From positions 1 through 43,009 of the forward strand of contig DAOUTW010000035.1 in assembly GCA_030668485.1 (NCBI GenBank): a stretch of DNA of 43,009 bases, in the 5' to 3' direction. This document shows positions 33,562-35,093 of this stretch, piece after piece (position 1 is the first letter of the stretch; every line of letters begins with the position of its first letter). The DNA is from Candidatus Zixiibacteriota bacterium. GTDB lineage: Bacteria > Zixibacteria > MSB-5A5 > GN15 > JAAZOE01. The position numbers and the translations under genes were made by a program. Under the pieces are notes generated by a model that worked only from the letters and a program-made list of their open reading frames with translations, had not been told where the DNA came from and did not search any database.

Positions 33562-34992
33562 TCAACGTTTGATCTTTTGCAGAAGGTCGCGGAGGTAGGG
33601 GATCAATTTGTCGCGGTCGATGGTTTCCTGGATGTTTTCGGCCTTGAGCCACTCTTCCCGGTCGGAAACTTCCTGTGCCTGCACCCGTCCGGCGACAAGA
33701 TTTTTGATTGTCACCTGGTTGTTTGCGAACTCATCCGACCCAAGTATAACTGCAATCGGGACACCGATTTTGTCGCCATACTTCAACTGTTTGGTTAAGT
33801 TCTTGGTCTCCCCCAGAAAGATCTCGGCGCGGAATCCCTGCGAACGAATTTCATTGAGGATCTTTATATATTCCGGCATCTTCTCCCGGTCCATAGCGGT
33901 AACCAAAACCTCGGAGATGGTCGTCCGCGACTGGATCAGATCACGCGACATGAGCGCTGCCAGCAGACGGTCTATTCCCGCTGATGCTCCCGTGCCGGGG
34001 ACTTTTTTGCCCAAAAATCTTTCGACCAATCCATCATATCTTCCGCCGGCGAAAACTGAACCAACCTCGGGAATATCTTTCAGGACCGTCTCAAACACCG
34101 GCCCAGTGTAATACCCGAGACCCCGCACGATGGTCATGTCGACAATTGTTTTTTCGGCAGGAACGCCGAAAGCGAGGAGGTATCCTGCTATTTCGCGGAG
34201 TTCGTTGATACCTTCTTCGGCCTCTTCAATTCCCTTGAGCATGCCTTCTGCGGAATCAAGAGATTTTTGGGAAAGGAATTCTTCTATGATGGCAATCTGC
34301 TGGACCGGTAAATTTAGTCCCGGAATCTTGTCGCCCGATTTGTCGATCCGCCCCGGTCCCAACTCCTGTTTGATCGCTACCATCCCCTGCTTTTCGAGTT
34401 TGTCCATAACGCGGAAAATATCGGGGGACTGCTCCGGTGAAATTTTTGCAAATTCGGCCAGACCGTTCAGGATGCGGCGATTGGAATAGCGGATTTCATA
34501 GTTGGGTAGATTCAGCTTTTCGAATGAGTTTCCGATGGCGGCCATGATTTCGGCGTCGGCCAGCATCGAGGCGGTTCCGACCGAATCGATATCGAATTGC
34601 ATAAATTCGCGGAATCGTCCCAGCCCCGGTTTATCGACGCGCCAGACCGGGCCGAATTGGTAACGGCGGAACGGGAGAGGAAGTTCGGGATTTCCGGCAA
34701 CATAGCGGGCCAGCGAGGCGGTTAGTTCAAACCGCAAAGCCATATCGACCTTTTCAGGGCCGGTGAAATTGAAAATTGTCTCAAGGTTGTCCGAACCGTA
34801 ATCGGCGCCTTTGAGCGTCTCTATTTTTTCCAGAGCCGGGGTTTGAAGGGGCGAAAAGCCGAATGATTCAAACACTTCGCGAAATGTTTTCAACAGTTCT
34901 TGCCGAGCGATCTCCTCGGAGGGCTCATAATCGCGAAATCCCTTCAGGACTTCGGGTCGGATTTTTTTTGATTTGCCTTTTTTCTTACCCAT
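33562..34992 (-). CDS. hisS: Histidyl-tRNA synthetase, divergent (alpha/eukaryote-like) type
   Basis: 476 residues. Class II synthetase: motif 1 region (about 45-55), motif 2 at 108-135 (R118, R126, R128), the HisA/HisB region (VRGLGYYTGPVFE, AGGRYDGLV) and a C-terminal anticodon-binding domain (about 370-476). The motif 2 loop reads RVDKPGLGRFREFMQFD. The canonical bacterial loop has Gln (E. coli Q118) where this has Gly123; the GRFREFMQFD pattern is close to the alphaproteobacterial and eukaryotic enzymes. It lies 26 bp downstream of tRNA-His on the same strand, probably in one transcript. See the finding on tRNA-His. Confidence 0.97.
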   Translation of the reverse strand: MGKKKGKSKKIRPEVLKGFRDYEPSEEIARQELLKTFREVFESFGFSPLQTPALEKIETLKGADYGSDNLETIFNFTGPEKVDMALRFELTASLARYVAGNPELPLPFRRYQFGPVWRVDKPGLGRFREFMQFDIDSVGTASMLADAEIMAAIGNSFEKLNLPNYEIRYSNRRILNGLAEFAKISPEQSPDIFRVMDKLEKQGMVAIKQELGPGRIDKSGDKIPGLNLPVQQIAIIEEFLSQKSLDSAEGMLKGIEEAEEGINELREIAGYLLAFGVPAEKTIVDMTIVRGLGYYTGPVFETVLKDIPEVGSVFAGGRYDGLVERFLGKKVPGTGASAGIDRLLAALMSRDLIQSRTTISEVLVTAMDREKMPEYIKILNEIRSQGFRAEIFLGETKNLTKQLKYGDKIGVPIAVILGSDEFANNQVTIKNLVAGRVQAQEVSDREEWLKAENIQETIDRDKLIPYLRDLLQKIKR

Positions 34993-35018
34993 GGGATTTC
35001 ATTTTCTCAATAAAAAAA

Positions 35019-35093
35019 TACTGGGGGGCGGAATTGAACCGCCGGCCTCCTGATCCACAATCAGGCGCTCTAACCTAACTGAGCTACCCCAGC
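35019..35093 (-). tRNA. tRNA-His(GTG) lacking G-1, with A73
   Basis: 75-nt cloverleaf on the minus strand: acceptor GCTGGGG/CCCCAGT (G1-U72 wobble), T8-A9, D-stem GCTC/GAGC, anticodon stem CCTGA/TCAGG with loop TTGTGGA (GTG, His), T-stem GGCGG/CCGCC with loop TTCAATT, discriminator A. The base before position 1 is T, not G, and no C73 is present. The 3' CCA is not encoded; seven T follow. Confidence 0.93.

Follow-up and report, generated by a model that had tools for sequence, protein, structure and literature searches.

How is histidine identity specified in a bacterium whose tRNA-His gene encodes no G at position -1, and where did such a system come from? The additional G at the start of tRNA-His is regarded as almost universal, and the question is raised by a locus within a window of 43,009 nucleotides (the whole stretch of DNA that was analysed) from a Candidatus Zixiibacteriota bacterium. 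A mature tRNA-His that lacks the -1 nucleotide and is charged without G-1 has been reported for Alphaproteobacteria (PMC9976931, PMC4284800), and the reviews consulted give its bacterial occurrence only for one group of these organisms (PMC4284800, 2014; PMC6471195, 2019; PMC9976931, 2023). The alphaproteobacterial trait has served as a phylogenetic marker, and published explanations for it invoke either gene transfer from eukaryotes or convergence. No report of such a pair in other bacterial phyla was found in the literature searched; an earlier mention is not excluded. The pair type itself is already known, and what is new here is its spread over phyla, its transfer as a cassette and its variants at 1:72 and 73.

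The tRNA-His gene and the adjacent hisS

The locus comprises the following features:

35019 to 35093, minus strand: tRNA-His(GTG), positions 1-73 (ARAGORN; Rfam RF00005, 71.4 bits; sequence)
35094, minus strand: base -1 of the tRNA-His, T and not G (sequence)
34993 to 35018, minus strand: spacer of 26 nt between tRNA-His and hisS, with the tRNA upstream on the same strand
33562 to 34992, minus strand: hisS, histidyl-tRNA synthetase of 476 aa, Gly123 (G-1-independent) type (TIGR00442; PF13393)
34600 to 34644, minus strand: motif-2 loop, residues 117-131 of HisRS (alignment, residue numbering)

Positions 1-72 of the tRNA-His occupy 35020-35093 on the minus strand, with the discriminator A73 at 35019. 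The acceptor strands GCTGGGG and CCCCAGT place a G:U pair at 1:72, and CCA is absent from the gene. The T at -1 means little by itself, because it is shared by 22 of the 38 other tRNAs of the window genome and is the commonest -1 base there; the telling features are the lack of G-1 combined with U72 and A73. These features are kept throughout the whole order of the host. The score against the Rfam tRNA model, this order-wide conservation and the perfect covariation between tRNA and HisRS over 69 genomes (see below) argue that the oddity is not due to chance.

The adjacent HisRS matches TIGR00442 with 362 bits, above the family cut-off. Its motif-2 loop reads KPGLGRFREFMQFD (KPGLGRFREF). Residue 123 in this loop is Gly (codon at 34624-34626), a position at which the aligned canonical bacterial enzymes carry Gln. 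The same residue number, Gly123, is given for alphaproteobacterial HisRS (PMC3937112). Both features claimed by the original prediction held, namely T-1, G1-U72 and A73 in place of G-1:C73 in tRNA-His(GTG), and Gly replacing Gln (E. coli Gln118) in motif 2 of the adjacent enzyme, numbered Gly123 here. As a separate observation, the HisRS of the f1 genomes G066-G070 carries an extra stretch after residue 250, which reaches about 100 aa in G068 (L070 1959-3692) and is not present in the window HisRS or in G065.

The only histidine system of the genome

The window genome comprises 139 contigs and is 99.95% complete. Exactly one tRNA-His was found among its 42 tRNA loci, every one of which was examined after an Rfam search, and protein searches returned one HisRS, with a single PF13393 match. 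No second tRNA-His or HisRS was found in the genome by these searches, and a hidden second canonical pair is unlikely on the same grounds. Thg1 (PF04446) was detected neither in the window genome nor in any of the 129 Zixibacteria genomes searched, and the Methanosarcina match that served as control was recovered. It was also absent from 31 of the 33 non-Zixibacteria genomes that were reached through the non-Gln HisRS type. A second canonical tRNA-His, a bacterial-type HisRS elsewhere or a Thg1 homologue would have refuted the original prediction; all three were searched for and none was found. The two Thg1-like genes (PF04446) among the 33 genomes belong to L266 (G143) and L267 (G147), both Planctomycetota.

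Covariation of the motif-2 loop with the tRNA

The covariation set consisted of 69 genomes from all phyla in which both genes were read. HisRS with Gln123 goes with a G-1/C72/C73 tRNA-His in 14/14 cases, and HisRS with another residue at 123 (Gly, Asp, Ala or other) is never combined with C73 (55/55; 53 A73 and 2 U73). G119 was not caught by the loop pattern and was assigned Gln by alignment. Since Gln members of the eukaryote-like HisRS branch (G008, G010 and a Chitinophagaceae MAG) retain a G-1:C73 tRNA-His, loop residue 123 tracks the tRNA-His type better than the HisRS branch does.

Of the 55 non-Gln genomes, 52 have G:U at 1:72. The other three are exactly those whose enzyme differs in loop length. 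All are Planctomycetota (L161, L168, L183) with A73 and a longer motif-2 loop. Two planctomycetes with G1:C72 have the HisRS loop NPYEKRGRF, to which NPAMTRGRY of human HisRS is similar, and one Planctomycetaceae with C1:G72 has KKPGPGRF. A link between the 1:72 pair and loop length is possible but remains only a lead, because it rests on three cases of which two are close relatives.

Distribution in Zixibacteria and other phyla

The near relatives of the window genome are titled Candidatus Zixiibacteriota. Among 132 Zixibacteria genomes, non-Gln HisRS is carried by the order of the window (families f1-f4), by f9, f10, f15 and f18, and by genome G128 of f19; these enzymes are 42-76% identical to the window HisRS. 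Most other families have a canonical bacterial HisRS with about 30% identity to it, and the enzyme of f7/f8 is eukaryote-like and carries Gln. The tRNA-His was read in 80 Zixibacteria genomes, of which 51 show no G-1, G1:U72 and A73, and 27 show G-1, G1:C72 and C73. The pair without G-1 is standard in the order of the window and not peculiar to the window genome. Base -1 in relatives of the pair is mostly T, with some C or A.

The remaining two of the 80 genomes, both of f18 (G123, locus L130; G124, locus L061), have G at -1, G1:U72, U73 and an encoded CCA. The rule of the missing G-1 is not absolute, as here a non-Gln HisRS is paired with a gene-encoded G at -1. The U73 of these genes is a third discriminator state alongside the non-Gln HisRS type.

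The HisRS alignment was used for a single scan of GTDB genomes. By record title, the loci that it returned belong to Acidobacteria (Acidobacteriota), Planctomycetota, Hydrogenedentota, Neomarinimicrobiota, Coatesbacteria, Stahlbacteria and Alphaproteobacteria. One MAG each under the titles Nitrospiraceae and Bacteroidetes was also matched, but we do not trust these labels. The tRNA-His could be read in 32 of the 34 scan genomes searched: 31 lack C73, and the Chitinophagaceae genome is canonical with Gln. The Alphaproteobacteria of the set gave the known U72/A73 form and served as positive control. The original prediction had inferred the same paired change in a non-proteobacterial lineage; this held and is amended to about eight phyla, Zixibacteria included. 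Among pair members with A73, T is the commonest base at -1, and several have A, C or G.

The pair is rare in the sampled Acidobacteriota and Planctomycetota. The U72/A73 pattern is present in at least 4 of 149 Acidobacteriota genomes, and a pattern search with A73 fixed found A73 tRNA-His in at least 14 Planctomycetota, against at least 161 with any tRNA-His pattern.

Linkage and transfer of the pair

Of 26 linked loci from several phyla, 23 have the tRNA-His a short way upstream of a hisS in the same orientation, with gaps of 15-274 nt. The other three are one inverted locus, one with a mis-set start (L171) and one split by the choice of frame (L183). In canonical Zixibacteria, tRNA-His and hisS are far apart or on separate contigs.

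The clearest transfer is seen in G128 (f19), which has only the G-1-less pair, while its congeners G126 and G127 are canonical. The tRNA-His of G128 is 66-69% identical to those of its congeners and 97% identical to that of L151, whose HisRS is also near. In G125-G127, an M48 peptidase gene and aspS flank hisS. In G128 these two neighbours are still adjacent, but the resident hisS has disappeared with no remnant that could be detected; the incoming tRNA-His/hisS pair is located away from this site. Because the tRNA resembles that of L151 and the resident hisS was lost from a conserved site, the tRNA-His of G128 was not adapted in place; tRNA-His and HisRS arrived together. The pair does not always move as one, however, as in f3 the HisRS belongs to a planctomycete-like branch, the tRNA-His is like that of other Zixibacteria, and the two genes are unlinked. 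Here the enzyme seems to have been exchanged at a time when the tRNA-His was already of the new type. The earlier claim that linkage supports a co-moving pair therefore held, with G128 as the main case and f3 as an exception.

Phylogeny of HisRS

All non-Gln HisRS form one clade, supported by 95/91 in the final tree (96/87 in the first tree, before the L183 row was corrected), and the Gln types, Nostoc and human HisRS are outside it. The enzymes of the window lineage (f1, f2, f4 and f10) form a clade with 100/100 support. Alphaproteobacteria are placed deep in another subclade, together with Planctomycetota, Neomarinimicrobiota, Coatesbacteria and Zixibacteria f15 and f3. The corrected L183 falls near Alphaproteobacteria with weak support, and alphaproteobacterial monophyly is no longer supported as it was in the first tree. 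Because the inner branches are partly weak (13 of 61 open), the donors and the number of transfers are uncertain.

A single clade for all non-Gln HisRS of Zixibacteria was rejected (p=2e-5); therefore, the phylum acquired this enzyme more than once. The HisRS of the window lineage looks vertically inherited, and the clearest transfers are those in G128, f15 and f3. One clade of Alphaproteobacteria and human HisRS was also rejected (p=1.6e-4). Eukaryotes are represented by the human sequence only, and the question of a eukaryotic origin is answered in that form alone. Since Alphaproteobacteria lie within the supported clade, the trait extends beyond that class and is not a product of convergence. 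The original prediction had left the choice between transfer and convergence to a tree of HisRS; the window enzyme shares a clade with the alphaproteobacterial enzymes, human HisRS is outside, and homology with transfer is favoured.

A proposed matched identity pair and its alternatives

We consider it very likely that the tRNA-His and HisRS of the window are a matched histidine identity pair, which works without G-1 and which, in the wider family, has moved between lineages as a unit. The sequence features, the covariation, the common clade, the linkage and one displaced resident gene are observed; where the mature tRNA begins, what determines aminoacylation and which way the transfers went are inferred. 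RNase P would cut the leader at +1, as in an ordinary tRNA, so that the mature tRNA-His would start at G1, and because Thg1 is absent, no G would be added afterwards. Charging is inferred from homology with Caulobacter, in which the HisRS determinants are A73, U72 and the anticodon (PMC9976931). By this analogy and from the covariation, a HisRS whose motif-2 loop lacks the Gln that goes with C73 is predicted to read A73, G1:U72 and the anticodon. To our knowledge, neither 5' end mapping nor aminoacylation data are available for such a pair outside Alphaproteobacteria. On this reading the pair belongs to one bacterial HisRS clade of about eight phyla with Alphaproteobacteria as one branch, and in this family it has passed between lineages as one unit and taken the place of the resident canonical pair. 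On a bolder reading, which we regard as likely, a mobile two-gene cassette arose once in Bacteria outside Alphaproteobacteria and, through repeated co-transfer in which resident pairs were displaced, reached at least eight phyla, Alphaproteobacteria being one recipient; 1:72 and base 73 then changed with the motif-2 loop.

Two alternatives concern the 5' end. U-1 might be kept after processing and be read by HisRS as U-1:A73, another form of extra nucleotide, and T is indeed the commonest -1 base in tRNA-His genes of the pair. This is very improbable, since T-1 is also the commonest base in other tRNAs of the window genome, several pair members with A73 have A, C or G at -1, and the Alphaproteobacteria with T-1 belong to a group reported to lack the extra nucleotide (PMC4284800). 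Alternatively, G-1 might be added post-transcriptionally, as it is in eukaryotes, whose tRNA-His likewise has A73 and no encoded G-1; the enzyme would be Thg1-like or one not yet known. The distribution of PF04446 (0/129 Zixibacteria; only the two planctomycete matches among the 33 others) makes this hardly credible.

The other two alternatives concern the origin of the pair. Under convergence, Zixibacteria would have lost G-1 and gained A73 independently while their own HisRS changed in parallel, for which the different phyla and the weak inner branches of the tree could be cited. However, the window HisRS is not a modified canonical Zixibacteria enzyme (about 30% identity), it falls in one supported clade together with the enzymes of Alphaproteobacteria, and the Gly123 loop, U72 and A73 are identical in both pairs, which renders convergence highly unlikely. 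A HisRS acquired from eukaryotes, with the bacterial tRNA-His adapting in place, is suggested by the eukaryote-like similarity of the window-type enzyme (PDB matches) and was proposed for Alphaproteobacteria in work cited by PMC3937112. We find it equally hard to sustain, because the clade of human and Alphaproteobacteria was rejected, albeit with one eukaryotic sequence, the nearest relatives are all bacterial, and in G128 the tRNA-His was swapped along with hisS and not adapted; PMC5370408 also cites a study that does not support eukaryotic transfer.

Relation to known systems

The pair of the window is closest to that of Alphaproteobacteria (the RRCH clade, with biochemistry from Caulobacter crescentus), with which it shares the lack of an encoded G-1, G1:U72, A73, Gly123, the absence of Thg1 and the HisRS clade. 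Alphaproteobacterial HisRS is 40-44% identical to the family member of G128. In contrast to the window, where tRNA-His is directly upstream of hisS, the alphaproteobacterial loci have no such tRNA-His within the 4-kb flanks that were fetched. The canonical bacterial pair of E. coli and other Zixibacteria families belongs to the same enzyme class, catalyses the same reaction and matches TIGR00442, but differs by Gln at 123, G-1:C73 and G1:C72. The eukaryote-like Gln HisRS (Bacteroidota PDB 6nhi; Zixibacteria f7/f8) shares the large branch of the window enzyme with 38-41% identity, yet keeps Gln123, and in f7/f8 and the Chitinophagaceae MAG it occurs with a G-1:C73 tRNA-His. The Thg1-dependent eukaryotic system has A73 in common with the window, although human HisRS is in a different branch and the window genome has no Thg1. 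HisRS of the protists Acanthamoeba and Trypanosoma also works without G-1, but this solution is described as having no sequence similarity to the bacterial one (PMC4284800).

A family of about eight phyla alters the reading of the trait as a marker, as a eukaryotic transfer and as a convergence. Comparison of G128 with its congeners gives a case from nature in which a linked tRNA-synthetase pair replaced the whole identity set of one amino acid in a single step; such a route would get round the obstacle that normally hinders the passage of tRNA identity rules from one lineage to another. Many members of the family are also candidates for orthogonal HisRS/tRNA-His pairs, in which 1:72 and 73 vary by degrees.

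Another unusual tRNA

A well-formed tRNA with a long variable arm and a Leu-like D arm, but with the anticodon UGC (Ala), was observed at L053 108-194 and at L280 8129-8301 (G000:C51:90128-90300, in the window genome). It adjoins a second tRNA-like sequence whose loop likewise contains TGC, and the two may form an island of odd tRNAs. A normal tRNA-Ala(UGC) is also present at another place in the window genome.
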